Under the pieces are notes generated by a model. That model was not told where the DNA came from, ran no database searches, and saw only the letters and a program-made list of their open reading frames with translations. The translations under genes and the position numbers were made by a program. A stretch of DNA of 29,641 bases from a bacterium (lineage in GTDB: Bacteria; UBP18; UBA7526). Position 1 is the first letter of the stretch; the number at the start of each line of letters is the position of its first letter. Where the stretch lies: positions 1 to 29,641 of the forward strand of contig JAUWYL010000017.1 of the NCBI GenBank assembly GCA_030615855.1. The letters run 5' to 3'. Shown here one piece after another: positions 6,585 to 28,931 of this stretch.

Positions 6585-6589
6585 AAGAA

Positions 6590-12247: not shown

Positions 12248-13411
12248 ATGAGAAAGAAATTTATAATCCTTTTTTGCTTAACAGTATTCTTTGTCAGCCT
12301 AACCCCTTTCTCTGCGGGGAAAGAAGCCTACGAAAAGGGATATTTAGAAGAGAGAAACGGAATCTTCGTCTTACATCTCAAGGGGAGTCCTTATGAGATG
12401 GGCTACCAGCACGGGATGCTCACCAAGCACTTGATGGGCAAGAGCAAAGAGGCCTTTGATGAGGCGGTTCCATCGATAAAGGGAGGAAGGGCCGGGGAGT
12501 GGATTGTAAAGAGGTACCTCTTCTGGAAGTTAGGAAAGATGGAGAAGTATGTTCCTCAAGAGTTTATTGAGGAACTCAAAGGGATGGCGGATAGCATTAC
12601 AGAGAAAGAGGTCGATTACAGAGAAATCCTACTCTACCACGCTATGCGAGATATCGGCCAGGTCTTGGCCTGCTCAAGTTTCGTTGCTCTACCCCAGACC
12701 ACAAAGAACAAAGAACTTATTTATGGTCGGAACTTTGACTTCCTGAAAGGAAGCTCCTTAGAGAATCTGGTTACTTTTTATGAACCAGATAAAGGAAACT
12801 CTTTTGTTTCCATTGGCTGGCCGGGGATGATTGGGGTAGTGAGTGGGATGAATGATAAAGGACTTATCGTAGGGATACTCACCGCTTACTCAAAAGATGT
12901 CTCCTTTGATGGTATACCTTCTTGTTTTCTTACCAGAAAGGTTCTTCAGTATGCTAATAATATAAAAGAAGCAGAAGAGATCATCATTAAGAGCAAAAGG
13001 ACTGGCCCCAATATCATCCTTTTAACGGATGAGAAAGAGGCTTTAATTATAGAATGCTCGGCGACAAAATATGCTCTGCGAAAACCACAGGATGGTCTTC
13101 TTTGTTCAAGCAATCATTTCTTAAGTGCTATCTATGAAAGGGATAAGAAGCGAAGGAAGACCTTGGAATCCGGGGATAGTGAGAAAAGGTATAAAAGGAT
13201 GGAGAGATTATTAAAAGAAAATAGTGGACAGATTGATATAGAATATGGTATTAAGATATTGGGGGATGATGTAATCTTAAAAGAGAACACTCTCCATTCT
13301 GTGATCTTTCTTCCCCGAACATTAGAATTCTTAATTGCCCCAGGCCCGCATGCTTCTGGTAATTTCATTAAGTTTCACCTAAAAACTTTAGAAGAAATTC
13401 ACCATCAATGA
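12248..13411 (+). CDS. Exported C45-type autoproteolytic acyltransferase / amide hydrolase
   Basis: A 387-residue Ntn-hydrolase-like protein. A Sec signal peptide covers about residues 1-23. GSPYEMGYQHGMLTK (46-60) is the conserved N-terminal motif of the acyl-CoA:6-aminopenicillanate acyltransferase (C45) and choloylglycine hydrolase-like group. The presumed nucleophile is Cys142 in LACSSFVAL, where family members cut themselves to expose the Cys. IYGRNFDF (158-165) and WPGMIGVVSGMNDKGL supply the oxyanion and Asn/Asp positions. Members hydrolyse or transfer acyl groups on amides. Here it would act outside the cytoplasm, perhaps on the exported lipid; the substrate is unknown. It is separated from the upstream operon by 76 bases and may be on the same transcript. 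Confidence 0.75.
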   Translation: MRKKFIILFCLTVFFVSLTPFSAGKEAYEKGYLEERNGIFVLHLKGSPYEMGYQHGMLTKHLMGKSKEAFDEAVPSIKGGRAGEWIVKRYLFWKLGKMEKYVPQEFIEELKGMADSITEKEVDYREILLYHAMRDIGQVLACSSFVALPQTTKNKELIYGRNFDFLKGSSLENLVTFYEPDKGNSFVSIGWPGMIGVVSGMNDKGLIVGILTAYSKDVSFDGIPSCFLTRKVLQYANNIKEAEEIIIKSKRTGPNIILLTDEKEALIIECSATKYALRKPQDGLLCSSNHFLSAIYERDKKRRKTLESGDSEKRYKRMERLLKENSGQIDIEYGIKILGDDVILKENTLHSVIFLPRTLEFLIAPGPHASGNFIKFHLKTLEEIHHQ

Positions 13412-13416
13412 CATTA

Positions 13417-13487
13417 GATCTGTGATCTGTGTAAATCTGCCCCGAAGGGATCCCTTTGGGATAAACAATCTGTGTCTATCTGTGTTA
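13417..13487. repeat. Iterated aatctgtg word tract (type C, copy 2)
   Basis: Repeated atctgtg words surround a nearly perfect 20-bp palindrome at 13441-13460, centred on GGGATCCC with a single G-T pair. A strong aaaaaggaggt ribosome binding site follows for the next gene. Confidence 0.7.
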
Positions 13488-13503
13488 TAAAAAGGAGGTA
13501 TTC

Positions 13504-15051
13504 ATGCGCGTATTCTTAGTTGATGCCCCCCATAAAGTCTGGCCGGTGATGAGAGGGTGGACGCCCAATCCTGGAATTTTGCCTTTGGGTGCCTATTTAG
13601 AGAAGGACTTTGATGTTAAGGTGGTGGATGGAACGGTTCTGGAAGATTCCTGGAGGGACTTAGAAAAGATAATGAAAAAAGAGAAGCCAAAGATCGTAGG
13701 GATATCCTGCATCGCCACCTGCTTCATCTATGATACTATGAACGCCTGCCGCTTGATTAAAGAGGTAAGTCCTAAAACAATTATCGTTGCTGGGGGTAGC
13801 CATCCTGCCCTGGTTCCGGAAGAGACCCTAAGGAGTTGTAGAGAGATAAATTACATTGTGGTGGGTGAGGGGGAGGTTACTTTCTATGAGTTCCTGAAGG
13901 CCTTTGAGAAGGGAGAGAAGAACTTCTCAAAGATCAAGGGATTGGCCTATTTAGACGGAGATAGATTCGTCTATACCGGGGATCGACCTCTGATTGAAGA
14001 TTTGGATACCCTGCCCATGAATGCCTATCACCTCTTCGATATGTCCAACCCCAGATACAATATCGCCTCAGAGGGAAGAAACTCTCTATCCGTCACCTTC
14101 AGCCGTGGATGTGACTACAAGTGTACCTTCTGCTCAGAGACCGTTCTTTGGCGCCATAGATGGAGAAGAAAGAGTGCCCAGAAGATGGTGGATGAGTTCC
14201 AGTTACTGAAAGAGAAGTATGGGAGAACGGCCTTCTTCGTGGGAGACGACATGTTCAACTGGGATAGAAAACATACTGAGGAATTCTGTGATGAGATGAT
14301 TAAAAGGAAGGTAGGGGTAAACTTCTGGATTCAGACCAGGGCTGATTTTCTCTTAAGGGATAAGGATTTAATTCCCAGATTGAGGGAGGCCGGATGTTAT
14401 CAGATTATGATGGGTTTAGAACACCATAGCCAGAAGGTTTTGGATGCCATAAAGAAGAAGGCTTTGATTAAGGAGAGTCTGGAAGCCATGAGACTCATAA
14501 AGAAGCATAGAATCTCTGTTATGGCTACCCTAATGCTCGGCCACTGGAATGATACTAAAGAGGATATGTACGATCTCTACCGCTTTGTCAGACCCTATCT
14601 TCATCACTACGGCCAGGGGGTGATTACCCCTCTGCCCGGAACCCCATTCTATAGAGAGATGAAGAAGTTAGGTAGGATAAAAGTAACCGATTACTCAAAG
14701 TATGACTACATCCACGCCATAATGCCTACCAAGACCATGTCTCCTGAAGAAATCACAGGTACGCTATTAAACCTTCACAGGAAGTTCTATCTCAACTGGC
14801 GCTTCTTCTGGCAGACCATCTTTCCCGAGCATCCTATGATTAGACCTATTCACATACATTTTTTAAAGTATGCTTGGGATACCTTTAGGCAGGAGGCCTT
14901 TGGTGCCCCAGAGTGGGTCCAGCCAGGATACCAGACCTACGAAGAATACTTAAAGGAGAAAGAAACAAGGAACGCGAAACGTGGAACGCCTGCCAAAAGC
15001 GAGGTCTCGCCCCTCCGGGCCGGACGAAACGCTAAACGCACTATTTCTTGA
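13504..15051 (+). CDS. BchE-like B12-binding radical SAM protein, copy 1
   Basis: A 515-residue protein resembling the anaerobic Mg-protoporphyrin ester cyclase BchE. The N-terminal cobalamin-type domain includes VGISCIATCFIYDTMN, VAGGSHPALVPEE and YIVVGEGEVTFYEFL. Cys203, Cys207 and Cys210 in FSRGCDYKCTFC bind the [4Fe-4S] cluster. KMVDEFQLLKEKYGRTAFFV, DKDLIPRLREAGCYQIMMGLE and TPLPGTPFYREMKKLG line up with BchE in order. No canonical DxHxxG is seen. BchE forms a carbon ring on a tetrapyrrole; the role here is unknown because chlorophyll genes are absent. A strong aaaggaggt sets the start. The tail from residue 486 (RNAKRGTPAKSEV...) is translated from aacgcgaaac-type repeat words and overlaps the minus-strand gene by 11 bases. 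Confidence 0.8.
   Translation: MRVFLVDAPHKVWPVMRGWTPNPGILPLGAYLEKDFDVKVVDGTVLEDSWRDLEKIMKKEKPKIVGISCIATCFIYDTMNACRLIKEVSPKTIIVAGGSHPALVPEETLRSCREINYIVVGEGEVTFYEFLKAFEKGEKNFSKIKGLAYLDGDRFVYTGDRPLIEDLDTLPMNAYHLFDMSNPRYNIASEGRNSLSVTFSRGCDYKCTFCSETVLWRHRWRRKSAQKMVDEFQLLKEKYGRTAFFVGDDMFNWDRKHTEEFCDEMIKRKVGVNFWIQTRADFLLRDKDLIPRLREAGCYQIMMGLEHHSQKVLDAIKKKALIKESLEAMRLIKKHRISVMATLMLGHWNDTKEDMYDLYRFVRPYLHHYGQGVITPLPGTPFYREMKKLGRIKVTDYSKYDYIHAIMPTKTMSPEEITGTLLNLHRKFYLNWRFFWQTIFPEHPMIRPIHIHFLKYAWDTFRQEAFGAPEWVQPGYQTYEEYLKEKETRNAKRGTPAKSEVSPLRAGRNAKRTIS
14964..15040. repeat. aacgcgaaac word tract with GC-rich inserts (type G, copy 1)
   Basis: Words such as aacgcgaaac, gtggaacgcc and gacgaaacgctaaacgc run through the end of the radical SAM gene, with GC-rich segments (cctgccaaaagc, cccctccgggccgg) among them. 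They are translated as the last 25 to 30 residues of that protein. Confidence 0.6.
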
Positions 15052-15391
15052 GGAGCTTATCTATCTCTTCCACCCACTTCTGAGATATCTTTAAGACCTT
15101 TGGCCAGCCGAAGGCACGAATGCGAACCTTTAGAATCTGAGAAACGTTATTCTCATCCTGATAATCAATGGTTAAAAAGACCTTTATCCAGGTATGAATA
15201 TAATCCTTTATTACAGAGGCCTTAAATATTCTGGAAAGGGGAATGTTATAAAGGGGAAAGCCCCGCACTTTACACTCTATTCCTTCTTTGGCTAGAACTA
15301 ACTTTCCTGGCCGCTGTTTTGCAGGATAACCCGGTATTCCACTGTAGTAGATAACCTTGTTCTTCAAGATAGGCCTCACCTCGTTCGGCAA
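15041..15391 (-). CDS. Small hypothetical protein, only minus-strand gene
   Basis: Up to 116 residues with a coherent amino-acid pattern: GIPGYPAKQRPGKLVLAKEG, CKVRGFPLYNIPLSRIF, a run of alternating strands and a final helix WVEEIDKLLKK. The strand pattern with a closing helix recalls bacterial PH-like or GRAM-like domains, but I cannot name a family. The longest frame starts with TTG at 15391, without a good ribosome binding site. A TTG at 15367 has gaggtgagg 6 bases upstream and is the better start (108 residues). A near-consensus minus-strand promoter lies at 15545-15573. It converges on, and overlaps by 11 bases, the BchE-like gene. Confidence 0.6.
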   Translation of the reverse strand: MPNEVRPILKNKVIYYSGIPGYPAKQRPGKLVLAKEGIECKVRGFPLYNIPLSRIFKASVIKDYIHTWIKVFLTIDYQDENNVSQILKVRIRAFGWPKVLKISQKWVEEIDKLLKK

Positions 15392-15395
15392 TCTT

Positions 15396-15490
15396 CACAG
15401 ATTAGCGCAGATTGACTAAACTGATTAGCACGGATTTAGTGCGATGAGGATCAGTGCTAATCCGTGTCTTTTAATCTGTGCCCATCTGTG
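15396..15490. repeat. Iterated cacagatt / aatctgtg foldback (type C, copy 3)
   Basis: The left half carries cacagatt, gcagatt and agcacggatt words. The right half carries their inverses (gctaatccgtg, aatctgtg, catctgtg). It lies in the leader of the minus-strand gene. Confidence 0.7.
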
Positions 15491-15544
15491 TAACTATTCA
15501 AATTCCGATACCTTAAAATAGCCATAACTCCTCCTTCTTTCTAT

Positions 15545-15573
15545 ATCTTATAGGTTAAGTCCTTAAAAGTCAA
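15545..15573 (-). promoter_or_regulatory. Sigma70-type promoter for the minus-strand gene
   Basis: Read on the minus strand: TTGACT (15573-15568), a 17-base spacer and TAAGAT (15550-15545). Its -35 box touches the left arm of the hairpin at 15572-15637. Confidence 0.65.
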
Positions 15574-15637
15574 CCCCGCACCTTTTCAATATTCATTTTT
15601 TATCTTAATACTTTGAATGGATAAAAGGTGCGGGGTT
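15572..15637 (+). promoter_or_regulatory. 15-bp stem-loop abutting the ribosome binding site of the 15649 gene
   Basis: AACCCCGCACCTTTT (15572-15586) and AAAAGGTGCGGGGTT (15623-15637) pair perfectly around a 36-base loop. The 3' arm runs directly into aagga (15638-15642), which serves the ATG at 15649. Folding could limit ribosome access. No T tract follows, so it is not a plain terminator. Confidence 0.6.
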
Positions 15638-15648
15638 AAGGAATCAAG

Positions 15649-16944
15649 ATGAAACTTCTACTAATCTTTCCTATGGGAAAGGGCCGGGTGATGGGCAAGC
15701 ATTCTTTTTTCAAACTTGTGCCCTTGACTCTGCCCTATATCGCCGCCCTTACTCCAGAGGATGTAGAGGTTACCATTACCGATGACCTGGTGGATGAGAT
15801 AGACTTTGAGGCCGATGTGGATCTGGTGGGATTGACCGTTCTCACCCCTTTGGCTCCCCGGGCCTATGAGATTGCAGACAGGTTTCGAGCAAGAGGGGTA
15901 AAGGTAGTCCTGGGAGGGGTGCATGTCACCATGTGTCCTAAGGAGGCCTCTCCCCATGCAGATGCCTTAGTCCTAGGAGAAGCAGAGGAGACTTGGCCAC
16001 AGCTCATCGAAGATTTTAAAAAGGGAAGACTGAAGAAATACTATCGCTGTCCTGGGCCTCCTGACTTAAAAAGGATTCCTGTGCCCAGGTGGGATCTATT
16101 GAAGATGAGATATCTTCCCACCTATTCCGTTCAGACCAGCCGGGGTTGCCCCCATGACTGCGATTTCTGTTCCGTGACCACCTTCTTCGGTGGAAAGTAT
16201 AGACTGAGACCGGTAGAGGATGTGGTAAATGAGGTCCAGACTCTAATCGAGAGTAGACGTCAGAAAGCCCCTTTAGGAAATATCTTCTTCTTCAATGATG
16301 ATAATATCTTTGCTAATCCCAGCCATAGCAAGAGGCTCTTTAAGGCGTTAACTCCGCTTAGGATAAAGTGGTTGGGCCAGGCGCCGATTACCATGGCCTG
16401 GAACGAGGAATTACTAAAGATCGGTGCCGACTCTGGATGTATCGGGGTTTTAATCGGCTTCGAGTCTCTATCTCAGAAGAATATCGATAAGATGGGAAAG
16501 AGGATTAATAGAGTGAAAGAGTATGAGGAGGCAATCAAAAGGATTCATGCCTATGGGATCAAGATCATGGGTTCCTTTATGTTCGGCCTGGACGAGGACG
16601 ATAGAGGGGCCTTCGAAAGGGTAGTGCAATTCATGGAGAAGACCCATATCGATGTCCCGGGATTGGGAATCGCTACCCCCTATCCTGGAACAAGATTCTA
16701 TAAAAGGCTGCGTAGAGAGAACCGGATATTTGATAATGATTGGGCAAATTATGATAGTACGCGTAGCGTCCATCGTCCTCTCCGGATGAGCCCTCGGGAA
16801 GCGGATGAGGGTTTAATCTGGGCCTGGAAGAGGACAACATCCATTCCCTCCATATTTAAGAGGACGGTCTTTCCTTCCAACCGTTCCCTCTTCTATTTCC
16901 TCTTCAACTTCGTCTTCCGCCAGACAGTACGGCGCATGTTCTAA
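15649..16944 (+). CDS. B12-binding-type radical SAM protein with DUF4070-like C-terminus (paralog of 7510)
   Basis: A 431-residue paralog of the protein at 7510. Both have the cysteine motif at the same positions (Cys167, 171, 174 in TSRGCPHDCDFC), the same SVTxFFG after it, and matching VDLVGLTVLTPLAPRAYEIA and VVLGGVHVTMCPKEA in the cobalamin-type domain. GFESLSQKNIDKMGK, MGSFMFGLDEDD, ATPYPGTRFYKRLRRE and DNDWANYD follow in order, ending in a basic tail. The pair could carry out successive or alternative modifications of one substrate. The gene is preceded by a strong stem-loop touching its aagga site, which suggests separate translational control. No cobalamin riboswitch is visible. Confidence 0.8.
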   Translation: MKLLLIFPMGKGRVMGKHSFFKLVPLTLPYIAALTPEDVEVTITDDLVDEIDFEADVDLVGLTVLTPLAPRAYEIADRFRARGVKVVLGGVHVTMCPKEASPHADALVLGEAEETWPQLIEDFKKGRLKKYYRCPGPPDLKRIPVPRWDLLKMRYLPTYSVQTSRGCPHDCDFCSVTTFFGGKYRLRPVEDVVNEVQTLIESRRQKAPLGNIFFFNDDNIFANPSHSKRLFKALTPLRIKWLGQAPITMAWNEELLKIGADSGCIGVLIGFESLSQKNIDKMGKRINRVKEYEEAIKRIHAYGIKIMGSFMFGLDEDDRGAFERVVQFMEKTHIDVPGLGIATPYPGTRFYKRLRRENRIFDNDWANYDSTRSVHRPLRMSPREADEGLIWAWKRTTSIPSIFKRTVFPSNRSLFYFLFNFVFRQTVRRMF

Positions 16945-17584: not shown

Positions 17585-19159
17585 ATGCAGAAGACAGACT
17601 GTCTCTTTATCAACACCCCCAAGATGAATAGTTACTATAAGCCCTTGGGGAATTTTATTCTGGATACCTATATGCCCATGGGCTTATTAGCTATGGCCGA
17701 TTCATTGACTAAAAAAGGTTTCTCTTCTAAGATTATCCACTTAGGAGTGGAATGGATCCTAAACCACGATTTCTCTATTCTGAATTACTTCAAAGGTAGG
17801 AAAGTTAAAGTAATTGCCATTCCTCTCCACTGGCATCATCAGTCCTATGATGCCATTGAACTAGCCAGGAAGATAAAGAAAGCCCATCCTAAAGTCTATA
17901 TTGTCTTAGGAGGCTATACCGCCAGTTATTTTGATGAGGAGATTCTAAGAAGATTCTCATTTATCGATGGGATTATAAGAGGGGATGGAGAGAAACCTAT
18001 CCTTTCTCTGGTAAGAGCCATCATTAAGAAGAGAGCTCTATCGAGGGTTCCTAACTTGACTTGGAAAAAAGGAGAGAGAATCATCAGAAATAGGCTTTCT
18101 TACATTGCTACCCAGGAAGACTTGGATGAACTATCCTTCACCAATTTTAAACTATTGAAGAATTATCAGACTTATGTCAGACATATTGGTTTCTTACCCT
18201 TCTTTGCCAAGAATTTCTCCAAAGAGGCCAACTACTTAATGTTCTCCTACCGCAGCTCCACCTTTCCTCTCTTTACCGGTCGGGGGTGTCTGGCTAATTG
18301 CACTTATTGTGGAGGAGGGAAGAGGGCTCAGGAGTATATTAGTGGAAGAAAAGAGCCTATATTCAGGTCTCAAGAAAAAGTTTTAGAGTCTATAAAAGAG
18401 GCTCAGGAGTATGGGTATGAGACGGTTCTCATGGACTTTTATCCTTCTCCACAAAGTGATGATTATTACATAAAACTCTTTCAGATGATCAGAAAAGAGA
18501 GGATAGATATTGAGTGCCTCTTTGGCTGTTTCTTTCTCCCCTCTAAAGAATTTGCCGAGGAGTTTCACAAGACCTTTCCGGGTAGAAAATCGGCCATCTG
18601 GCTCTCCCCAGAAAGCGGGGTAGAGATGGTGAGAAAGAAAATAAGGGGGTTCTTCTATACTAATGGCCAGATTATGGAGGCCTTAGAAAATCTCAATAGA
18701 TTGCATATTATTACTGAGCTCTATTTTACCTTCGGCTTTCCCTTTGAGAAAGAAGAGGATGTCTTGAAGACCAAGAGATTTGCTTTCTATTTGAAAAAGA
18801 GATTTAAATCTATCTGGGCCATCAGGGCCTATCCCCTAGAGATGGAGCCCGCCTCTCCCTGGCAAAGAGACCCAGAAAAGTTCGGTGTGGTATCAAATAG
18901 AAAGAGTTTTATTGACTTCTACAAAGCAAATAGTCAGAAGAATCCAGAGGTTCTCAACAGCCTGGGTTACTATATCCCGGGTTTCTTCAATGAAGAGGCT
19001 TCTGACTTTGCTTCGTTTGAAAGAAAGATGCAGAGATTGAAGTGCAGGCATTTCTGCCTCATCCATCCTAATGCCCGAAAATCAGGCCCTCCCTGGCTGG
19101 GAAAACTCATGTGTCGGGGAATGAGCTTCTATCAAAAACTGAGAAGAAAAAAGACTTGA
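17585..19159 (+). CDS. Divergent B12-binding-type radical SAM protein
   Basis: A 524-residue enzyme without a close paralog in the window. The N-terminal Rossmann-like domain shows VIAIPLHWHHQSYDAIELA (77-95) and YIVLGGYTASYFDEEIL; IIRGDGEKPILSL follows. The radical SAM motif is GRGCLANCTYC with Cys235, Cys239 and Cys242, followed by a glycine triplet. WLSPESGVEMVRKK and TFGFPFEKEEDVLKT correspond to the later parts of the barrel. The C-terminal 60 residues hold KCRHFC, HPNARKSGPPWLGKLMCRG and a basic end, a possible extra cysteine site. The start codon follows repeat words with no clear ribosome binding site, so translation may depend on the upstream gene. The substrate is unknown. Confidence 0.75.
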   Translation: MQKTDCLFINTPKMNSYYKPLGNFILDTYMPMGLLAMADSLTKKGFSSKIIHLGVEWILNHDFSILNYFKGRKVKVIAIPLHWHHQSYDAIELARKIKKAHPKVYIVLGGYTASYFDEEILRRFSFIDGIIRGDGEKPILSLVRAIIKKRALSRVPNLTWKKGERIIRNRLSYIATQEDLDELSFTNFKLLKNYQTYVRHIGFLPFFAKNFSKEANYLMFSYRSSTFPLFTGRGCLANCTYCGGGKRAQEYISGRKEPIFRSQEKVLESIKEAQEYGYETVLMDFYPSPQSDDYYIKLFQMIRKERIDIECLFGCFFLPSKEFAEEFHKTFPGRKSAIWLSPESGVEMVRKKIRGFFYTNGQIMEALENLNRLHIITELYFTFGFPFEKEEDVLKTKRFAFYLKKRFKSIWAIRAYPLEMEPASPWQRDPEKFGVVSNRKSFIDFYKANSQKNPEVLNSLGYYIPGFFNEEASDFASFERKMQRLKCRHFCLIHPNARKSGPPWLGKLMCRGMSFYQKLRRKKT

Positions 19160-19425: not shown

Positions 19426-19953
19426 ATGGAGAAAGAACTCATTCTTCTCGGCCTTCTGAAGGAAGGGCCAAGGCATGGCTATGAATTAAAGAGAATAGTC
19501 GATGAGAAGATATCCACTTTTGCCCCTATCAGTGCTGGTTCTATTTACTATACTTTGAAGGGATTGGCAAAGGATGGCTTGGTAAGTATGACCAGGAAGA
19601 GAAGGGGCAAGTATCCAGAGAAAGAGGTCTATAGAATAACAACGAAGGGAGAGAAGAGACTTAGGGAATTACTTGAGGAGACCTGCTTCAATATCAAGAG
19701 GCTTTACCGGAGTATGGATATCGTTCTATACTTTATGAATTATCTCAAGCCAAAAGAAGTGATTAGAGGGCTAAGAAATAGGATTGGGCAGATCAAAGGA
19801 ATAAGAGAGGAAACCAAAGGGATCTATATGAAGATAAGGAGGGAGAGATATCCTTATTACATTCAGGCCATTGCCCAGAGGAATATAAGGTTTATGGATA
19901 AGGAAATAGAATGGATGGAGGACTTCATAAAAGAGATTAGGAGGAAATCGTGA
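19426..19953 (+). CDS. PadR-family transcriptional regulator
   Basis: A 175-residue regulator starting at the ATG at 19426, with aggagg 5 bases upstream; a TTG at 19408 in the same frame is less likely. Residues 1-80 form the PadR winged helix: LILLGLLKEGPRHGYELKRI, the recognition region ISAGSIYYTLKGLAKDGLVS and the wing RRGKYPEKEVYRITTKGEKRL. The rest is the helical dimerisation part. PadR proteins usually repress by binding an inverted repeat and are released by a small hydrophobic or phenolic ligand. The GTG of the BchE-like gene overlaps its stop codon. With the operator-like repeats upstream, this suggests self-regulation together with the 19950-26140 operon. Confidence 0.85.
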   Translation: MEKELILLGLLKEGPRHGYELKRIVDEKISTFAPISAGSIYYTLKGLAKDGLVSMTRKRRGKYPEKEVYRITTKGEKRLRELLEETCFNIKRLYRSMDIVLYFMNYLKPKEVIRGLRNRIGQIKGIREETKGIYMKIRRERYPYYIQAIAQRNIRFMDKEIEWMEDFIKEIRRKS

Positions 19954-21479
19954 AGGTGTTCTTGATTGATCCGCCGCATAAGATCTGGAGCGAGATGAGG
20001 GGTTGGGTACCGGCTCCAGCCCTGACCGCTTTGGGGGCCTATCTAGAGAAGGATTTCGATATTCGGGTTCTGGACTGCTCGGTGATGGAACATCCCTGGA
20101 GGGATTTAGAGGAGGCGGTAAGAGAAGAGAAGCCAGAGGTAGTGGGAATTACTACCATTGCCCTCATGTTCTATTATGATACCTTGAATGCTGCAAAACT
20201 GATAAAAATGGTCTCTCCTAAGACCAAGGTAATAGTTGGTGGGCCAGATCCCTCTCTAATTCCAGAGGAATTTTTAAGGGATGCTAAAGGAGATATTGAC
20301 TTCATTGTGGTGGGTGAGGGGGAGATTACTGCCTACGAGTTATTAAAAGCCATAGAGAGAAAAGAGAAGGACTTTTCCAAGATAAAGGGATTGGCCTATC
20401 TTGAGAATGATAAGTATGTCTATACCGGAGATCGGGAATTCATCAAGGATTTAGATAGCCTGCCTATGCCTGCTTATCATTTCCTTCCCATGGATAATCC
20501 CATGTATGGAATACCAGCCTTCATGCCCCCTCATACGGTGACCATCTGTACTTCCCGGGGCTGCCCCTATAGATGCACCTTCTGTACCCAGACTGTGATG
20601 TGGAGGCACACCTGGAGGGGAAGGAGTGCTAAGAAAGTAGTGGATGAGATAGAACTGTTGGTTACTAAATATAAGAAAAGGGCGATTCTGGTAGGGGATA
20701 ACGACTTTTTAATAAATAGGAAGCGAAATATCGAGTTCTGTGATGAGATGGAAAAGAGAAAGATCAAGATAGACCATATCTGGGTTCAGGCAAATCCAGC
20801 TCATATTATAAGGGATAAGAATCTTCTCACTCGCTTTAAGAAGGTCGGGATTTTCATGACCCTACTGGGAACAGAGTCTGCCACTCAGAAGATCGTGGAC
20901 AAGTATCATAAGCCCATGGGCGTGGAACAGAACATCGAGGCCTTCAAACTATTGAGGAAGAACAAGATACTGGTCTTAGCAAGCATGATGATTGGTGGGG
21001 AGTACGAGACCATAGAGACCATCAATGAGATGGCCAGATTGGGCAGGAAGTATGGCGACTTTCCTACCTGGGCCCATGCCACTCCTTTTCCCGGGACCCC
21101 TTACTATGAAGAATGTAAGAAGAAGGGGCTGATTGAAGTAACAGATTACAGAAAATATGACTGGGCCAGCGCCATCACCCCTTCCCGCACTCTTTCTCGA
21201 GAAGAGTTGGAGAAGTTGCGCATCGGTTTATTCCAGAGGGTGTATGGCCTGCGGCTCTTTGTCAAAGCCTTTTTTTCTCCCAACCCCAATATCAGGAGAT
21301 ATGAAAGATTTGCGGCCAACGAGTGGCTGGCAAGACAGATCTTCAAGAGGCCCTGGGTGGCACCAAATTATCAGAGCTTTGAGGATTATATGAAGGAACA
21401 CGGAGCTACACCCCATACCATCGCCTCCGGCGAGCTACGGGGCAGGCGAAATAACACGAAACAAAAGAATGCAAAATGA
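19950..21479 (+). CDS. BchE-like B12-binding radical SAM protein, copy 2
   Basis: A 509-residue paralog of the protein at 13504, with a shared opening (MKVFLIDPPHKIWSEMRGW, LGAYLEKDFD). Cys205, Cys209 and Cys212 in TSRGCPYRCTFC form the radical SAM centre. KKVVDEIELLVTKY, NDFLINRKRNIEFCDEM, RDKNLLTRFKKVGIFMTLLG and EQNIEAFKLLRKNKILV follow BchE closely in order, more so than copy 1. WVAPNYQSFEDYMKEHG then ends the conserved part. The GTG start has aggagg upstream and overlaps the PadR gene by 4 bases, so the enzyme is probably made only when the repressor gene is transcribed. The last 20 residues (ASGELRGRRNNTKQKNAK) come from a GC palindrome plus acacgaaa words. No Mg-chelatase or BchM gene is nearby. 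Confidence 0.8.
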   Translation: MKVFLIDPPHKIWSEMRGWVPAPALTALGAYLEKDFDIRVLDCSVMEHPWRDLEEAVREEKPEVVGITTIALMFYYDTLNAAKLIKMVSPKTKVIVGGPDPSLIPEEFLRDAKGDIDFIVVGEGEITAYELLKAIERKEKDFSKIKGLAYLENDKYVYTGDREFIKDLDSLPMPAYHFLPMDNPMYGIPAFMPPHTVTICTSRGCPYRCTFCTQTVMWRHTWRGRSAKKVVDEIELLVTKYKKRAILVGDNDFLINRKRNIEFCDEMEKRKIKIDHIWVQANPAHIIRDKNLLTRFKKVGIFMTLLGTESATQKIVDKYHKPMGVEQNIEAFKLLRKNKILVLASMMIGGEYETIETINEMARLGRKYGDFPTWAHATPFPGTPYYEECKKKGLIEVTDYRKYDWASAITPSRTLSREELEKLRIGLFQRVYGLRLFVKAFFSPNPNIRRYERFAANEWLARQIFKRPWVAPNYQSFEDYMKEHGATPHTIASGELRGRRNNTKQKNAK

Positions 21480-21611: not shown

Positions 21612-22325
21612 ATGAAGATTTTGGGAATCTGTGGGACACATAAGAGGCAGGATCAGGAGTCTTCCAGTGAATGGCTGTTGAAGGAGGCCCTGAAGGCCGC
21701 AGAGAAGAAGGGAGCAGAGACGAAATCTATAAGACTCATTAACTATAAGATTACTCCCTGCTTAGCCTGTAATAAGTGTCGGATTGGGGAGAAGTGTCCT
21801 TTATTGGAAGACCCCAATGATGATGTCAAAAAGATCTTTGATATGATTGATGAGGCGGATGCTCTAATCTTCTCCTCCCCTACCTATGCCTATCAGCAGC
21901 CGGCGGTCACCTTAAGCCTTTTCCACCGAGTCATTCCCTTGCACGAGATCGAGAGGTCTAAGGAGTGGGGACTGGATATCCGGGCCTATAAGTGCAATCC
22001 CTTCCATGGGAAACCGGTGGGGAATATGGCGGTCGGTGCTGGATTGGGGATGGAGGGAGCCCTCTATTATCTCTTCCATGTCTTGAAGGCCCTGGGTGCT
22101 ACCTCTGTTATCTGTACCGGGATAAGTCTATTGGAGGCAGAGACCAAGAACCTCTTCGCCGCTGCCCCCATGGATCCAGCGATAAAGAAACTCTTGGAGA
22201 TGCCGGGGACCAAACTTGAAGAGAATGAGTGCGCTATCGAACTCGCCCGGGCAGTGGGTAAGAGAGTAGTGGATGTCTATCATTCAGAGGTCTTCCAGTC
22301 ACTCAAGGATGTTTTGAAATACTAG
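21612..22325 (+). CDS. Iron-sulfur flavoprotein (Isf-like NADPH-dependent FMN reductase family)
   Basis: A 237-residue flavodoxin-fold protein. The start MKILGICGTHKRQDQESSSE corresponds to the FMN phosphate loop. A compact cysteine motif, Cys50, 53, 56 and 62 (CX2CX2CX5C), matches the [4Fe-4S] motif of archaeal Isf proteins. EADALIFSSPTYAYQQPAVT (81-100) is the usual flavin-contact stretch. Isf-type proteins shuttle electrons between ferredoxin and other partners in anaerobes, or reduce small molecules. The strong taggaggt site fixes the start. Its position between a BchE-like enzyme and a PCP_red-like protein suggests an electron supply role in the same operon. Confidence 0.8.
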   Translation: MKILGICGTHKRQDQESSSEWLLKEALKAAEKKGAETKSIRLINYKITPCLACNKCRIGEKCPLLEDPNDDVKKIFDMIDEADALIFSSPTYAYQQPAVTLSLFHRVIPLHEIERSKEWGLDIRAYKCNPFHGKPVGNMAVGAGLGMEGALYYLFHVLKALGATSVICTGISLLEAETKNLFAAAPMDPAIKKLLEMPGTKLEENECAIELARAVGKRVVDVYHSEVFQSLKDVLKY

Positions 22326-22448: not shown

Positions 22449-22472
22449 ACCCTATCTTAAAGGAGGTCCTAA

Positions 22473-22718
22473 ATGGATTGGGACGAGAAGGCTTATGAGG
22501 ATTTTAAAAAGTTGATCGGCCAGGCGCCGGTCTTTTCGAGAAGGACGGCAGAGAGATTAGTCTCTCAGAAGGCGGAGGAGAATGCTAAGGCCAGGGGTTC
22601 AAATAGGATCGAGGAAGAGGATATGATAAGGGCTTTCTTAAGCGAGACCCCAGGTCCCTTCAAGAGACGGATGTTCGCCGATATGGAGAGGTTCGGCATT
22701 GATTATAAGAAGTATTAG
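22473..22718 (+). CDS. Stand-alone PCP_red-like domain protein (ChlB/BchB C-terminal domain type)
   Basis: An 81-residue protein with a strong aaaggaggt site. Residues 15-57 (LIGQAPVFSRRTAERLVSQK..., AEENAKARGSNRIEEEDMIR) follow the pattern of the PCP_red domain, the short C-terminal domain of the dark protochlorophyllide reductase subunit ChlB/BchB. In ChlB that domain covers the tetrapyrrole substrate. Here it stands alone, without any nitrogenase-like subunit. By hand it aligns without gaps to the last 81 residues of the U32 protein at 24692, with about 30 identities (WD, F, P, R, AE, AK, RG, EEED, AFL, P, F, M, GID). Function is unknown; a small substrate- or partner-binding module is the natural guess. 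Confidence 0.7.
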   Translation: MDWDEKAYEDFKKLIGQAPVFSRRTAERLVSQKAEENAKARGSNRIEEEDMIRAFLSETPGPFKRRMFADMERFGIDYKKY

Positions 22719-22749
22719 AAATGATCTGTAAATTTTGTAATAAGGAGGC

Positions 22750-22768
22750 CTTGCCGCAAAGCGGCAAG
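22750..22768 (+). other. Perfect hairpin after the PCP_red-like gene
   Basis: CTTGCCGC-aaa-GCGGCAAG, about 30 bases after the stop codon. Only a weak T-rich stretch follows (ccttgtttcttc), so a terminator is possible but not clear. Confidence 0.5.
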
Positions 22769-22803
22769 AACCTTGTTTCTTCACTTCGTTCAGAAATAGA
22801 GAG

Positions 22804-22831
22804 ACTTTCGCATTCGCGCGAATACGAAAGT
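22804..22831. repeat. 28-bp palindrome centred on CGCGCG, copy 1
   Basis: ACTTTCGCATTCGC followed by its inverse with one mismatch (aatacgaaagt). It lies 25 bases before the start of the FAD enzyme gene. A perfect copy lies at 24100-24127 after that gene. Confidence 0.75.
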
Positions 22832-22856
22832 GCTATATGGGAGGTATCAATATAAA

Positions 22857-24071
22857 ATGAATAAGGAGCCGCGGCCAAGAGTTGCCATAGTAGGAGGAGG
22901 ATTGAGCGGATTAGCTGCTGCCTATTTCTTGAAGAAGAAGGGGACAGAGGTCACGGTCTATGAGAAAACCTCTGAAGTGGGAGGGAAGTTAGCCCGAGTA
23001 ATAGTGGATGGAGTCTCCATCGATACTGGTGCTTTACTCTATTCCAAGGAACTCAATCCCAACTTTGATGTCTTAATAAATGAATTAGGAGTAGAGTGCG
23101 AAAGGAGATATCTGAATACCTTTGCTCTTCAAATCGAGGATAAGATTACTGCCTTGAATCCTTTAGCCCTAGCAAAGTCGAGACTCTTTTCCTTTGGAGA
23201 ATTCTTGAAATGGAGGAAGGTGAAGAAGTTCATCAATTCCTTAAGTTTTGATCTGGATGAGGTGGACGAAAGGATTGATAAACTACACCAGATATCCTTA
23301 GAGAAATATTTAAGGGACGTTGGTTTCCGGCAGGAACTCATCGACTCCTTCTTTCGGGCTTTCTGCTCCTTCGCCTATGTGGATGGAGCGAAAGATTTGG
23401 CTGCTGATTTCGGCCTCTTCCTCTTAGCCTTCCCCCTGAAGACTATCATGGCTCCGGTTAAAGGGATGAGCGAGGTAGCTCTAGAACTGAAGAGAAGGTT
23501 GGGAGATAGTGTAAGACTGAATACCAGAGTAGTTAATATATCCCAGAATCTGGACAGAACCTTTACCGTAAGAACGGAAAAAGAAGGAAAAGTTTCTGAA
23601 GAGACCTTTGACTATTGTATCTTAGCAACAGGAAGGAGAAATTTTAAGAATATCTTCCCAGAAGTTGACTTTGAGATAGAGATTACCAAGGCCCGGGGAG
23701 TGATTCTGGAATCAGACTGCCCTACTTATAAGAAGTATAACGTGCTCATCATCTCCAAGTATAAGAATGAGCATGGGGTTCAGGGAGGGAAGATTAAGCA
23801 CCTGCCGGATGGAAGGAGTTTCTATGGCATGATGCTCTATCGACCGGATGCTGACCTGGGGAAAGTATTCGGGAAGCACAAGGTCCATCACAGGTTCGGC
23901 TGGTCACCAGCCATGGCCTGGATGTCTCCGGGATGCAAAATACCGGATGTCAAGACTAACATTTCTAAATGCTTTGTCATCGGTGACTTCGACCACTATC
24001 CCGGCGTTGAGCCCTGCATCTTCGCCGCCCAAAAGGCAGTGAAATCCATCTTAAAAGAAACAACATCTTAA
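22857..24071 (+). CDS. FAD-dependent amine oxidase / protoporphyrinogen oxidase-like protein
   Basis: I start at the ATG at 22857 (404 residues), with gggaggt 11 bases upstream. The longer frame from the GTG at 22830 begins inside the palindrome and adds no conserved sequence. FAD is bound by VAIVGGGLSGLAAAYFL (9-25), Glu36 in VYEKTSEVGGKLA and, near the end, CFVIGDFDHYPGVEPCIFAAQ. The middle part (DSFFRAFCSFAYVDGAKDLAADFGLF, KGMSEVALELKRRLGDSVRL) resembles the phytoene desaturase / HemG-HemY amine oxidase superfamily. It is shorter than, and not a close copy of, the two CrtI-like proteins at 9191 and 10705. The likely job is desaturation or oxidation of a hydrophobic substrate. Palindromes flank it on both sides. 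Confidence 0.75.
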   Translation: MNKEPRPRVAIVGGGLSGLAAAYFLKKKGTEVTVYEKTSEVGGKLARVIVDGVSIDTGALLYSKELNPNFDVLINELGVECERRYLNTFALQIEDKITALNPLALAKSRLFSFGEFLKWRKVKKFINSLSFDLDEVDERIDKLHQISLEKYLRDVGFRQELIDSFFRAFCSFAYVDGAKDLAADFGLFLLAFPLKTIMAPVKGMSEVALELKRRLGDSVRLNTRVVNISQNLDRTFTVRTEKEGKVSEETFDYCILATGRRNFKNIFPEVDFEIEITKARGVILESDCPTYKKYNVLIISKYKNEHGVQGGKIKHLPDGRSFYGMMLYRPDADLGKVFGKHKVHHRFGWSPAMAWMSPGCKIPDVKTNISKCFVIGDFDHYPGVEPCIFAAQKAVKSILKETTS

Positions 24072-24099
24072 TGCGCTCTCGTTTTTATTGAGAAAAAAG

Positions 24100-24127
24100 A
24101 CTTTCGCATTCGCGCGAATGCGAAAGT
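24100..24127. repeat. 28-bp palindrome centred on CGCGCG, copy 2
   Basis: A perfect palindrome, ACTTTCGCATTCGC followed by its exact inverse, between the FAD enzyme and the flavodoxin gene. Confidence 0.8.
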
Positions 24128-24165
24128 GCTTTAACATATCATAATTCAGATTTAAGGAGGTTTTG

Positions 24166-24651
24166 ATGAAGATTTTGATTGTTTATTATTCCAAGACGGG
24201 GAAGACGAAGGAGATTGCCCATACTATGGCCAATGAATTGGCGGATGGGAACGAGGTGAAGTTAAGAAAAATAAGGATGAAGGACGAGAGAGGTCTTCTG
24301 GCTACTTATCTTTTGGATACCAAAAAGGCATTAAGAAGAGAGAAACCGGAGATTGAAGTGCTCGACTTTGACCATAAGGAGTATGATCTCATCATTTTAG
24401 GAACCCCAGTATGGAGTGCCAATACCGCCCCAGCCATAAATACTTATCTTGAGAAAAGTGACTTCCGGAATAAGAAGGTAGCCCTCTTCGTTACCCTGCG
24501 CCTGATGGGAGGAGAGAAGGTGGTGGGGATTTTAACCGAAGAGATAGAAAAGAAAGGAGGAAAGGTCATCGATTTTATCATCATCAAGACCGGTCTGTGT
24601 CACAAGAAAAAAATGCTTCAGGAAGCCCGCCGATTCGCAAGTAAACTTTGA
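24166..24651 (+). CDS. Flavodoxin family protein
   Basis: A 161-residue flavodoxin. MKILIVYYSKTGKTKEIAHT holds the FMN phosphate loop, LIILGTPVWSANTAPAINTY the second flavin contact, and KKVALFVTLRLMGGEKVVG the third. Start at the ATG at 24166, with taaggagg 5 bases away; the TTG directly before it is in frame but less likely. Family members carry one or two electrons from ferredoxin reductases to enzymes such as radical SAM proteins. It follows a flavin desaturase and precedes the U32 protein, which suggests an electron carrier for either. It is the third flavodoxin-type protein in the window, after 6673 and 21612. Confidence 0.8.
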   Translation: MKILIVYYSKTGKTKEIAHTMANELADGNEVKLRKIRMKDERGLLATYLLDTKKALRREKPEIEVLDFDHKEYDLIILGTPVWSANTAPAINTYLEKSDFRNKKVALFVTLRLMGGEKVVGILTEEIEKKGGKVIDFIIIKTGLCHKKKMLQEARRFASKL

Positions 24652-24691
24652 TTACGGGGCGCTAATCTGTGCCTAAAGGAGGTAAAGTAAA

Positions 24692-26140
24692 ATGAAACTA
24701 TCAATACCTTGTAATTGGGATATGGAGTTAATAAAAGCAACAAAAGACTTGCCTGTCTATGATTTTTATGGTGCTATAGCCACCACGCCGATCGGACATG
24801 GTAGACCGGCGCTCATTATTCCTGATGTGGATGAGGATTTCGTAGCAGAATATATTAAAAAGGTTCATTCTACAAACCGAAAATTTTCTTATGTACTTAA
24901 TGCTACCAGTATGGGTAATTTAGAGTTCGATCCCAAGTTTCATAGGAAAATACTAAACTATCTTCACTGGTTAGTTGATATAGGGGTAGATGCGGTTCAT
25001 GTATCAATTCCGTACCTGATGGAAATAATTATACATCAATTTCCTAAATTGAAGGTAACCACATCAGTGATGGCCCATACTTGTTCTGTTGATATGGCGA
25101 AAGAATTTGAAAGGCTGGGTGTATCAGCAATAAATCTGAGTTTGGAAATTAACAGAGATTTTAAAGCTATAAGGGCAATAAGAAAGGCGGTAAAAATTCC
25201 TCTGGTATTAATTCCTAACTTAGCAGACTTACATCAATGTCCCTACAGGCATTATCATTATAGTATACTTGGTTTTACTTCCCAAACCCATAGTAAGGAT
25301 AAAGCTCGAAGATACTGGGCTATGCAGCCCTGCAAGATGTATTGTAATGATCGGAAATTAAGTGAGCCGTTAGAAATTTTAAAATCATGCTTTATCAGAC
25401 CTGAAGACTTAAAATTTTATGAAAAGGAAGGGATAGATATTTTTAAGTTGTCAGGAAGGCATCAAAATACTGAATGGATAATGAAAGTAGCAAAAGCATA
25501 TGCTAACCGGGAGTATAAAGGAAATCTTGTGGATATCATAGATGCCATTATAATGAACAAAAAGGATATTAGAGAGTTTCATCCGGAGTTTATAACTGAA
25601 TCAGATCCAGAAATCCAGGCAGTTCCTGAATTTTATAGCTGGAGCAGATTAGATCTTAGTGCGTCTGATGTTGTTAACATAGATAATAGCAAATTAGACG
25701 GATTTATTGATCATTTTGTGAATAATGGTTGCAACCCTTCTATTGATTGTGATGAGTGTGGCTATTGCGCAAAATGGGTTGATAAAGCAGTTAAAATAAA
25801 CCCTGATTTGTCTAAACAATATTTAGAAGCCATAAAGAAACATCGCAATGCGTTACTGATGAGTAAATTTGCAAAAGAAGTTGAGGCGCTGGAGTGGGAT
25901 AAGAAAGTGAGGATTATTTTTGAAAATATGATAAGTTCAATCCCGCAGGTGGTTAGAAAAGTTGCCAAAACTGCAGTTTCTGTAAATGCAGAGAAACTTG
26001 CCAAGGAAAGAGGCGCTTTTATTGTGGAGGAAGAAGATTTGGCCAAAGCTTTTCTGGAAAGTTGCCCTTCTGAATTTCAGGACCAGATGGGAGAGAAGTT
26101 AAAATCCCACGGGATTGATATAGCTAAATTTAGAGATTAA
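24692..26140 (+). CDS. U32-family protein fused to a C-terminal PCP_red-like domain
   Basis: A 482-residue protein. Residues 1-300 look like a U32 peptidase-type barrel (HWLVDIGVDAVHVSIPYLM, FPKLKVTTSVMAHTCSV, IPLVLIPNLADLHQCPYR). Cys183, 214, 218 and 233 may bind a [4Fe-4S] cluster, as in UbiU/UbiV and other U32 proteins that act in hydroxylation rather than proteolysis. A second cysteine group, Cys347, 353, 356 and 359 in GCNPSIDCDECGYC, lies in a separate segment. Residues 402-482 are a PCP_red-like domain matching the 81-residue protein at 22473. Codon choice looks more AT-rich (AAA, ATA, GCA) than in the neighbours, which may mean a different history. A strong aaaggaggt sets the start. 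Function is unknown; oxygen-independent modification is possible by analogy. Confidence 0.75.
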   Translation: MKLSIPCNWDMELIKATKDLPVYDFYGAIATTPIGHGRPALIIPDVDEDFVAEYIKKVHSTNRKFSYVLNATSMGNLEFDPKFHRKILNYLHWLVDIGVDAVHVSIPYLMEIIIHQFPKLKVTTSVMAHTCSVDMAKEFERLGVSAINLSLEINRDFKAIRAIRKAVKIPLVLIPNLADLHQCPYRHYHYSILGFTSQTHSKDKARRYWAMQPCKMYCNDRKLSEPLEILKSCFIRPEDLKFYEKEGIDIFKLSGRHQNTEWIMKVAKAYANREYKGNLVDIIDAIIMNKKDIREFHPEFITESDPEIQAVPEFYSWSRLDLSASDVVNIDNSKLDGFIDHFVNNGCNPSIDCDECGYCAKWVDKAVKINPDLSKQYLEAIKKHRNALLMSKFAKEVEALEWDKKVRIIFENMISSIPQVVRKVAKTAVSVNAEKLAKERGAFIVEEEDLAKAFLESCPSEFQDQMGEKLKSHGIDIAKFRD

Positions 26141-26378: not shown

Positions 26379-28931
26379 GTGAGGAAAAGAATTCTCAAGA
26401 AGATTGCTCGGATTTCATATCATAGATACAGATTAGTTTTAAGTATCGCTTTAATTCTGACCATTGTTTCACTTCTCTTATCCTTCCGTCTGGAACTAAA
26501 GACGGATATCATCAATCTCCTTCCTCCAGAATCCAAGGCAGCCAAGGTATTCTGTCGGGCCATCTCATCCTTCGGCACTTTTGATTACCTTATCGTCTTC
26601 ATCCGTACAACGGATACTCAACGCACTTCGTTTGCCTTGAGATATTCCACGGATAAAAACACGGATATTAAGCGATTAGAGAATTTTAGTGATTCCTTTG
26701 CCTATGAATTAGGAAAGTCCGACCTTATTGAAGGGATAGACTATAAGATTTCGGAAGAGATAAAGAGGTTCTTTCAGGAGGAGTTATTAAAGCGTCCTTA
26801 CCTTTACCTTTCTTCAAGCGATATTAGAAAGTTGAAGACTAAACTGAGCGATGAGGCCATCTATCGTCAGATAAAGGAGAACAAGCGCCTCTTAGCCAGC
26901 CCCATCTCATTCGCTACAAAGGACTTCATCCAGAAAGACCCCTTTAATTTACGAAGCATATTTAAAGGCTATATCCTGCAGCAGAAAGGCCCCTATAACC
27001 TCGACCTCAGTAGAGGCTATTACCTCTCTCCTGATCAGAAGGCCCTCCTGATGATTATCAAGCCCAAGAGGCCGCCCACGGATATTGATTTTGATAAGAA
27101 GTTGCTAAAAACCATTAAGGAGGCAGAGAAGAAGGCCTATAAAGAAGGAGTAAGAGTAGATTATACCGGTGGCTACATCATGGCCCTGGATGATGAGAGA
27201 ATGATTAAGAGGGACATCATACTTACCCTTTCCCTCGCCTTCTTTTTAGTCCTCACTCTATTCTTTCTTACTTTTAGAAGGAAGGAGACCTTCTTCTTTG
27301 TGAGCGTTCCCCTTTTAATGGGTCTGGCCTGGACGGTGGGGATCGCTTCTCTATATCCCAGGCATCTCAATATGGTCACCTTCGGCTTCTTTCCCATCCT
27401 AATCGGCTTAGGAGTGGATTATGCCATCCACATCTACAACCGCTACTTAGAAGAGAAGAGAAAAGGCAAGGATACCTTGAGCTCATTGGAGATTACTCTC
27501 TCTCAGACAGGGGAGGGGATACTGACCGGTGCTCTGACTACTGCGGTTGCCTTTTATTCTTTAACCTTCACTAAATTCCGGGGACTATCTGAGTTAGGAT
27601 TCCTTTCCGGGACAGGGATCTTAGCCTGCCTCCTGTCCATGTTCTTCATCCTTCCGGCTATTTTGAGCTGGCAAGTCAAGAGGAAGAGATTTGTACCGAA
27701 ACTCTTGCATCCCTTTGGATTGGAAAAGATTTCTAAGATTCTTTTAAAGTCTCCCAAGATTACCTTAATCGTTGCTATCTTTATCACTTTAATTTTGGGC
27801 TTAAGTGCTTTAGGGATCACCTTTGATAGTGACTTTCGGAACTTGAGACCAAAGGAGACTCCAGCCTTCAAGGTTCGGAATGAGATGGGGAAGAAGTTTG
27901 GCTCTCCTTCTGATCCCTTGATGATTATCGCTTCTGGAAAAAACAAAGAAGAAGTTCTTCAGGTAAATGAGAGAATAACCCAGAGAATAGAGGAATTAAA
28001 AAAAGAAGGGAGAATGGAATATTATCAATCCCCAATTAGTTTTCTTCCTTCAAAGAAGAGGGCTCGTGAGAATATTGAAGAGTTAAGAAGGTTTGACTTT
28101 GAGAGCATAATTACTACCTTTAAAGAAGCCCTCTTAAAGAATGGCTTCAGAATAGAGGCTTACCAAAGATATATAGATGAAATAAGAAATTTAGAGGCGA
28201 GGCTAAAAGGACCCGTCTCTATTTCAGGGAAGGATCTGGAGAAGATGACCAAACGCTATCTTATCGAAGACGAAGAAGGATTCAAGACTCTTACCCTGGC
28301 TTATCCTGTGAAGAAGATCCTTTCTCCAAAAGAAGTAGATGAGTTCGAAGAGAGAATAAAAGGAAACGAGAAGGGGATTAAGATTACTGGGGTGGGGATT
28401 ATTGCCAGTGAACTCAAGAGGTTAATCACTAAGGATTTTATCTTAGCTACAGTCCTTGCCTTTACTGGGGTCTTCATTATGCTTTTAATCCACTTTAGAA
28501 GAATAAAGATAGTAATTCTTGCTCTCATTCCCCTGATCTGTGGTATAATCTGGATGTTAGGGATTATGAGGCTTATCGGCCTTAGGATGAACTTCATCAA
28601 TATCGTAGTTACTCCTCTCATCTTAGGAATTGGGATAGACGATGGGATCCATATCATCCACCGCTACTTAGAAAAAGGACTTGTCCCCCGAAGCCTTGGC
28701 GTAGGGGGGGTAGAAGATGCCATTCATCATACGGGAAGGGCGGTGGTCATGACCTCTCTCACTACTATGGTGGGATTTGGGAGTCTGGTCTTTGCTCAGT
28801 ATAGAGGATTGGCCACCATGGGAGCCCTTGCCCTTCTTGGCGTAGGCCTATGTCTCATCGCTTCTTTAACCATTTTGCCAGTATTACTTAAGATAATGGA
28901 AAACACGAAACGACACGAACTAGAAAAATGA
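26379..28931 (+). CDS. RND/MMPL superfamily exporter (HpnN-like)
   Basis: An 850-residue transporter with two repeats, each made of one membrane helix, a large periplasmic domain and five further helices. First half: helix about 18-38, loop to about 275, then five helices including IGLGVDYAIHIYNRY with Asp347. Second half: LIVAIFITLILGLSALGI, a loop, then helices including LGIGIDDGIHIIHRY with Asp754 and Asp755. The acidic residues in the fourth helix of each half are the proton-relay positions of this superfamily. HpnN and MMPL members move lipids (hopanoids, mycolates, aryl polyenes) across the envelope. The GTG start has gagagg about 10 bases upstream. The last residues (ENTKRHELEK) are read from acacgaaa repeat words. 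Confidence 0.85.
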   Translation: MRKRILKKIARISYHRYRLVLSIALILTIVSLLLSFRLELKTDIINLLPPESKAAKVFCRAISSFGTFDYLIVFIRTTDTQRTSFALRYSTDKNTDIKRLENFSDSFAYELGKSDLIEGIDYKISEEIKRFFQEELLKRPYLYLSSSDIRKLKTKLSDEAIYRQIKENKRLLASPISFATKDFIQKDPFNLRSIFKGYILQQKGPYNLDLSRGYYLSPDQKALLMIIKPKRPPTDIDFDKKLLKTIKEAEKKAYKEGVRVDYTGGYIMALDDERMIKRDIILTLSLAFFLVLTLFFLTFRRKETFFFVSVPLLMGLAWTVGIASLYPRHLNMVTFGFFPILIGLGVDYAIHIYNRYLEEKRKGKDTLSSLEITLSQTGEGILTGALTTAVAFYSLTFTKFRGLSELGFLSGTGILACLLSMFFILPAILSWQVKRKRFVPKLLHPFGLEKISKILLKSPKITLIVAIFITLILGLSALGITFDSDFRNLRPKETPAFKVRNEMGKKFGSPSDPLMIIASGKNKEEVLQVNERITQRIEELKKEGRMEYYQSPISFLPSKKRARENIEELRRFDFESIITTFKEALLKNGFRIEAYQRYIDEIRNLEARLKGPVSISGKDLEKMTKRYLIEDEEGFKTLTLAYPVKKILSPKEVDEFEERIKGNEKGIKITGVGIIASELKRLITKDFILATVLAFTGVFIMLLIHFRRIKIVILALIPLICGIIWMLGIMRLIGLRMNFINIVVTPLILGIGIDDGIHIIHRYLEKGLVPRSLGVGGVEDAIHHTGRAVVMTSLTTMVGFGSLVFAQYRGLATMGALALLGVGLCLIASLTILPVLLKIMENTKRHELEK

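Follow-up and report, generated by a model that had tools for sequence, protein, structure and literature searches.

U32 oxidases (UbiU/V, TrhP, and RlhA) are enzymes that hydroxylate without the use of O2, prephenate serving as the donor. In the O2-independent hydroxylation of ubiquinone, the U32 proteins UbiU and UbiV work as a pair and act together with the SCP2 protein UbiT on a prenylated aromatic (PMC10470549; PMC11574389). The three proteins have been described as a metabolon (PMC10470549), which serves here as our precedent for an assembly of such enzymes. The cysteine motif CX6CX15CX3C is common to the U32 oxidases UbiU/V, TrhP, and RlhA (PMC11574389). The PCP_red domain (PF08369), known from the C-terminus of BchB/ChlB proteins, is represented by the NMR structures 2kru and 2l09. 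In DPOR, the substrate site is made up of residues of the nitrogenase-like subunits, including D274 of the opposite BchB subunit (PMC12518044). In the open-access literature, to which our search was confined (subscription journals were outside its scope), no description was found of a role for PCP_red, nor of a function for the DUF2621 family (PF11084). Within that scope, PF08369 is named in one paper, and no paper was found in which the domain goes by the name PCP_red.

The window analyzed here, i.e., the whole stretch of 29,641 nucleotides from a bacterial contig, encodes a domain of this broad group twice, once as a small protein of its own and once at the C-terminus of a U32 protein (Table 1). 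The two copies align without gaps (30/81 identities, 47 positives; BLASTP E 9e-17), as the first-pass annotation had proposed when it described an ungapped match to the U32 tail with about 30 identities. Its placement of the match in the C-terminal region of the U32 protein was also right, although the residues given (402–482) were two positions off. The copies were further said to be four genes apart; in fact, only the FAD oxidoreductase and flavodoxin genes intervene, and the U32 gene is the third downstream. A whole-genome search with the small protein found these two copies only in the 1.375-Mb metagenome-assembled genome (MAG), the U32 match having an E-value of 2.2e-12, and both are retained in two congeneric MAGs. 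As that annotation had stated, nitrogenase-like subunits are absent: the genome holds no PF00148 protein above the cut-off.

Table 1. Domain-bearing genes of the window and their neighbors, with the evidence for each assignment.
Feature	Position	Strand	Evidence
TIGR04190-type B12-binding radical SAM protein	17585..19159	+	TIGR04190 E 1e-70, below cut-off
BchE-like B12-binding radical SAM protein	19950..21479	+	TIGR02026 254.7 bits
NADPH-dependent FMN reductase-type flavoprotein, directly upstream of the stand-alone domain	21612..22325	+	PF03358 E 9.4e-21
Stand-alone domain copy, 81 aa	22473..22718	+	ORF, Shine–Dalgarno sequence, conservation in two congeners with low dN/dS, AF2 model
FAD-dependent amine oxidase/desaturase-type oxidoreductase	22857..24071	+	PF01593 E 4e-24
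Flavodoxin	24163..24651	+	Flavodoxin families, E 7.5e-12 and weaker
U32 protein, 482 aa, TIM-barrel-type core followed by the domain	24692..26140	+	PF01136 E 1.2e-14; 5d88 match; Cys/His columns in 23 homologues
Fused domain copy (U32 protein residues 400–480)	25889..26131	+	30/81 identities to the stand-alone copy; matching helix pattern

The short open reading frame of the stand-alone copy is a real gene, because a Shine–Dalgarno sequence (AGGAGGT, 22461–22467) lies five bases 5' of its ATG, this sequence and the start are found at the identical place in both congeners, and the dN/dS values are low (about 0.04–0.15; 0.04 for the window genome against either congener). For the FAD oxidoreductase, the ATG at 22857, preceded by ggaggt at 22840–22845, is the most likely start rather than the GTG at 22830. 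Unlike the tightly conserved stand-alone copy, the U32-borne copy is changing fast: compared with the congener G001, positions 25862–26137 have changed far more than the U32 core (8 synonymous and 28 amino-acid changes versus 38 and 20; Fisher p 5e-5). A DNA-pattern search of genome contigs returned three loci only. In a sister genus (G003), a contig end falls inside a domain copy nearly identical to the stand-alone one (L037:9901–10017); its neighbors are a ketoacyl synthase and a ketopantoate reductase whose sequence is divided between two ORFs, surroundings unlike those of the window.

The first-pass annotation had called the domain PCP_red-like. Both copies do match PF08369 (stand-alone copy 23.1 bits, E 7.8e-5; U32 copy 14.4 bits, E 0.04), but below the curated cut-off of 32.5 bits, and the resemblance to DUF2621 is at least as good. 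Against PF11084, the U32 copy scores 27.3 bits and the stand-alone copy 19.7 bits (curated cut-off 27.7); the matches begin at profile position 56–57 of 139, leaving the N-terminal half of the profile uncovered. Of the 51 sequences in the domain alignment, 44 have a PF11084 match at an E-value up to 0.1, and 20 have one to PF08369. When profiles were compared with each other (hhalign), that of 29 aligned domains from the window and from Asgard archaea matched a profile of 12 PCP_red domains, taken from proteins annotated as PCP_red or BchB-type, with 96.3% probability (E 1.9e-9), DUF2621 with 97.5%, and, in a further profile–profile comparison, the N-terminal domains of bacterial FMN reductases with 97.1%. 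Reversed profiles stayed below 1% (PCP_red reversed, 0.6%), and 30 column shuffles of each reached at most 6.2% (3.5% for PCP_red). Because these values of 96–97% stand against 0–6% in the controls despite Pfam scores below the cut-offs, the domain is, as judged from sequence profiles, a distant relative of both families.

With PCP_red, it shares the signature W...A...P..R...E..A...V. Compared with the short PCP_red form, helices 1 and 2 of the window-type domain are four residues longer, a long form that also occurs in some BchB-type proteins; moreover, it has an additional fourth helix and ends in a GID..Y tail, and the carriers are other enzymes. The likeness to the C-terminal part of DUF2621 spans the whole domain including the tail (profile positions 56–136), whereas the hydrophobic N-terminal part of that family is missing and the scores lie under or just under its cut-off. 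The earlier statement that the domain contacts protochlorophyllide in ChlB/BchB finds no support: the DPOR papers place the substrate site elsewhere without mentioning the domain, and no statement that it touches protochlorophyllide was found in the open-access literature on DPOR.

Both copies are predicted to share a four-helix topology. In the AF2 model of the stand-alone protein (51 homologues; pLDDT 97.3), the helices comprise residues 5–15, 20–40, 48–58, and 61–73, and in the U32 model (pLDDT 87.5) residues 404–414, 419–439, 447–457, and 460–472, an offset of 399; the predicted folds are thus alike. The most constant residues are W3, P19, E35, P60, and F63. No catalytic-looking residue common to the whole domain alignment was found, and the shared polar residues of ligand type are limited to E35, R41, and D50. 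A Foldseek search of solved structures returned AAA+ lid domains and the PCP_red structures 2l09 and 2kru, with a best E-value of 0.07 and no significant match. The VIA Z-scores of 7–9 to AAA+ lid domains are within the chance range for helical bundles. We claim no fold family, because both programs put AAA+ lids first and neither gave anything significant. A histone fold, at which the lengths of the helices and some weak profile hits on histone-fold proteins had hinted, is likewise not claimed.

The U32 protein itself belongs to its family without difficulty (PF01136, 54.6 bits; cut-off 22.4) and matches the U32 structure 5d88 over 231 aligned residues (VIA Z 21.3, rmsd 2.8). The Cys/His site of its core (C183, H189, C214, C218) does not reproduce the motif of the U32 oxidases exactly. 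A second cysteine site of the form CX5CX2CX2C (C347, C353, C356, C359; 25730–25768), invariant in 23 homologues of this U32 subfamily, possibly holds a second Fe–S cluster. The core is common to the TrhP/RlhA-type proteins, and the TrhP model NF011996 matches residues 45–167 (E 2e-7), although far below its 534-bit cut-off; the additional C-terminal domain and the biosynthetic surroundings also set the window protein apart. By analogy, it is likely an Fe–S, O2-independent hydroxylase-type enzyme of the general U32-oxidase kind.

Elsewhere in the window (4892–16944 and 26379–28931), genes for a LolA/LolA2-type protein, a lipid A-type acyltransferase, a 4HBT thioesterase, two CrtI-type desaturases, and an HpnN-like MMPL exporter are found, and the B12-radical SAM proteins number five. 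The BchE-like one lies far below the TIGR02026 cut-off (481.35), and membership in BchE was rejected. From this content, the window is likely a gene cluster for the O2-independent synthesis of a lipid or polyene that is then exported. Judged by gene position, the FAD oxidoreductase is a possible partner of the domain proteins, and the flavodoxin a possible electron donor; a protein joining the domain and the FAD enzyme, which would act as a Rosetta stone, was looked for in the genomes surveyed and none was found.

Outside the window, the domain was searched for with an eight-sequence profile, to which a Lokiarchaeota contig (L014) contributed two sequences, in 386 varied genomes and in 195 genomes from the phylum to which that contig belongs (labeled Promethearchaeota). 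To control for circularity, the window sequences were also searched alone, without the Lokiarchaeota ones: the two-sequence window-only model found a U32 protein of the Lokiarchaeota contig (E 3.4e-12), and the small protein alone matched an Asgard U32 protein with 43% identity (E 4e-17). The domain occurs in 18 of the 195 Asgard genomes, in one to eight copies each, and 177 are without it. Its carriers belong to one cluster and comprise two radical SAM/SPASM proteins (N-terminal domain), an ABBA prenyltransferase (at either end), a U32 protein (C-terminal domain), and a U32–domain–SCP2 fusion. Typically, the cluster opens with a TIGR04190-type B12-radical SAM protein, a short protein without Pfam match, and the two radical SAM/SPASM proteins; a TIGR04072-like B12-radical SAM protein and the aromatic prenyltransferase (PF11468) with an N-terminal domain follow; and it closes with a U32-related protein without the domain, the U32–domain–SCP2 fusion, and the U32–domain protein, with a separate SCP2 protein in some genomes. 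Such clusters, seen in L074 (2929–15536) and similarly in L075–L087, bring together an ABBA prenyltransferase, U32 and SCP2 proteins, two radical SAM/SPASM proteins, and two B12-radical SAM proteins. They are candidates for an anaerobic pathway whose product would be a quinone-like molecule or a prenylated aromatic. The closest families to the radical SAM/SPASM proteins are AhbD and NirJ, although the scores fall far below those cut-offs.

An independent search for PF11468 in the 195 Asgard genomes gave 12 proteins in 11 genomes, all 11 of them domain-positive, and none in the 177 domain-less genomes (Fisher p 1e-13, a value that ignores relatedness). All 12 prenyltransferases carry the domain, including one cut by a contig end that retains the last 30 domain residues. 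In these 11 genomes, the detected domain copies lie in the cluster or within a few kb of it; two clusters are present in G472, and that of G475 is divided over two contigs. At L080:17605–17832, a few kb beyond the cluster, a truncated additional copy of the radical SAM-type domain (75 aa) is probably a gene remnant. In G571, the prenyltransferase has its domain at the C-terminus instead of the N-terminus, which fits a tether and not a part of the active site.

Because the domain has no shared catalytic residues, is attached at either end, and occurs on several unrelated enzymes of one cluster, a docking part is the simplest reading. We therefore favor, with a probability of about 0.5, a docking module without catalytic function that assembles the enzymes of a pathway acting on a hydrophobic substrate independently of O2.

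A different account would make the domain a stabilizing or regulatory appendage with no specific partner, its recurrence in the cluster reflecting old duplication and fusion. We regard this as improbable. In the domain tree, 12 carrier labels need 11 changes, the minimum possible (81 columns, many forks unresolved), and since the tree requires only this minimum, the copies appear to have been tied to their enzymes for a long time; they look like specialized inherited parts that have largely followed their carriers, not recently swapped cassettes. Such sorting by carrier speaks for an appendage, as do the single copy seen in several genomes and the rapid change of the window U32 copy relative to its core. 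On the other hand, the free 81-aa protein is under strong purifying selection with nothing to stabilize in cis, and the prenyltransferase keeps its copy in every case, once at the opposite end. The suggestion in the first-pass annotation of a reusable module is thus upheld as to the module, which is found on at least five unrelated enzyme types, while reuse is limited by the way the copies sort.

In other bacteria, FMN reductases with an N-terminal domain were found in three genomes (G047, G192, and G324), and one of them matches the FMN reductase of the window at E 1.3e-11. These fusions bear on the window because its FMN reductase gene directly precedes the stand-alone domain gene. Further carriers are BchB-type proteins (C-terminal domain), a CGGC domain fusion, and DUF2621 proteins with hydrophobic N-terminal parts. 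Short stand-alone relatives of 78–80 aa adjoin metallo-beta-lactamase-fold genes in three bacterial genomes (L108, L110, L111). L101 (463–2436), L103, and L109 hold universal stress protein domains with three PCP_red domains behind them, as well as a protein that consists of three PCP_red domains; here, the domain group is put to another use. Since most carriers are Fe–S or flavin enzymes (BchB type, U32, radical SAM/SPASM, FMN reductases) and flavodoxin-type genes flank the domain in the window, it could be thought to dock ferredoxin or flavodoxin, as a redox donor common to the carriers, to redox enzymes that are sensitive to O2. The ABBA prenyltransferase, with its domain in 12 of 12 cases, makes this very unlikely: the PF11468 family is not known to need electrons.

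The Asgard cluster resembles the UbiU–UbiV–UbiT system in that U32 and SCP2 proteins, here even fused, stand beside an aromatic prenyltransferase. That enzyme, however, is of the ABBA and not the UbiA type; the Ubi proteins are not described as having the domain (PMC10470549); and the window differs in the inexact cysteine motif of its U32 protein and in a genome without SCP2. The main rival to docking is that the domain itself binds the hydrophobic intermediate common to the enzymes (a prenylated aromatic, tetrapyrrole, or polyene lipid) and offers it to them or hands it from one to the next, in a carrier or capping role. The presence of the domain beside lipid-binding SCP2 domains, the tetrapyrrole substrate of BchB-type proteins, carriers that would work on one molecule in turn, and the LolA- and MMPL-type lipid export proteins of the window cluster all agree with it. 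Yet SCP2 domains already serve lipid binding in the Asgard clusters, the DPOR papers do not put the domain at the substrate site, the universal stress and CGGC carriers have no obvious substrate of this kind, and the predicted compact four-helix unit offers few shared polar residues. Overall, we consider intermediate binding unlikely.

Returning to docking, the domain of about 80 residues would mark enzymes that act jointly, without O2, on one hydrophobic intermediate, probably aromatic or polyene-like, and domain–domain contacts or a common partner would gather them into one complex. In the window, the U32 enzyme carries one copy and the stand-alone protein supplies the second, which may link the U32 enzyme to the neighboring FAD, flavodoxin, FMN-reductase, or B12-radical SAM enzymes. 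We infer the docking as well as the partners, substrate, and pathway. Several observations count against this reading: other enzymes of the cluster, such as the B12-radical SAM proteins, lack the domain; the window genome has neither prenyltransferase nor SCP2 and may thus encode a pathway other than that of the Asgard cluster; and the copies, sorting by carrier in the tree, do not seem to be interchangeable tags. An obligatory pairing between domain copies is ruled out by single-copy genomes, e.g., G493, G543, and G548.

Two enzymes tie the window to the Asgard cluster. The U32 protein of the window shares 58% identity with that of the Lokiarchaeota contig L014, the two being sisters with 100/99 support. 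We read L014 as Asgard, because it also encodes a U32 protein fused to SCP2, which groups with Asgard proteins of that kind; the U32 gene would then have been exchanged between domains of life, in either direction. The TIGR04190-type protein of the window shares 35–37% identity with the Asgard proteins of the family that opens the cluster. Searches of the window genome for a PF11468 prenyltransferase and for SCP2 found neither. An identity of the bacterial and Asgard pathways was dropped, because what they have in common is limited to the domain, the U32 protein, and the TIGR04190-type enzyme.

What is new here is a module common to unrelated enzymes of the Asgard cluster, which the U32 and TIGR04190-type genes connect with the window. 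The open-access literature (subscription journals being outside the scope) yielded no paper that mentions Lokiarchaeota together with an aromatic prenyltransferase. Tentatively, Asgard archaea and some bacteria may possess an undescribed anaerobic assembly line, in which U32, radical SAM/SPASM, and ABBA prenyltransferase enzymes are joined by paralogous four-helix docking domains, with a prenylated quinone-like aromatic as the possible product in Asgard archaea and a related membrane lipid in the window organism.

When unrelated enzymes of a pathway carry one accessory domain, the domain directly reveals which of them cooperate, and the present case gives a testable idea for the roles of the PCP_red and DUF2621 families. 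The domain also points to an uncharacterized O2-independent pathway in Lokiarchaeota-type archaea, and prenylated or quinone-like aromatics made there would bear on the energy metabolism of the Asgard archaea.
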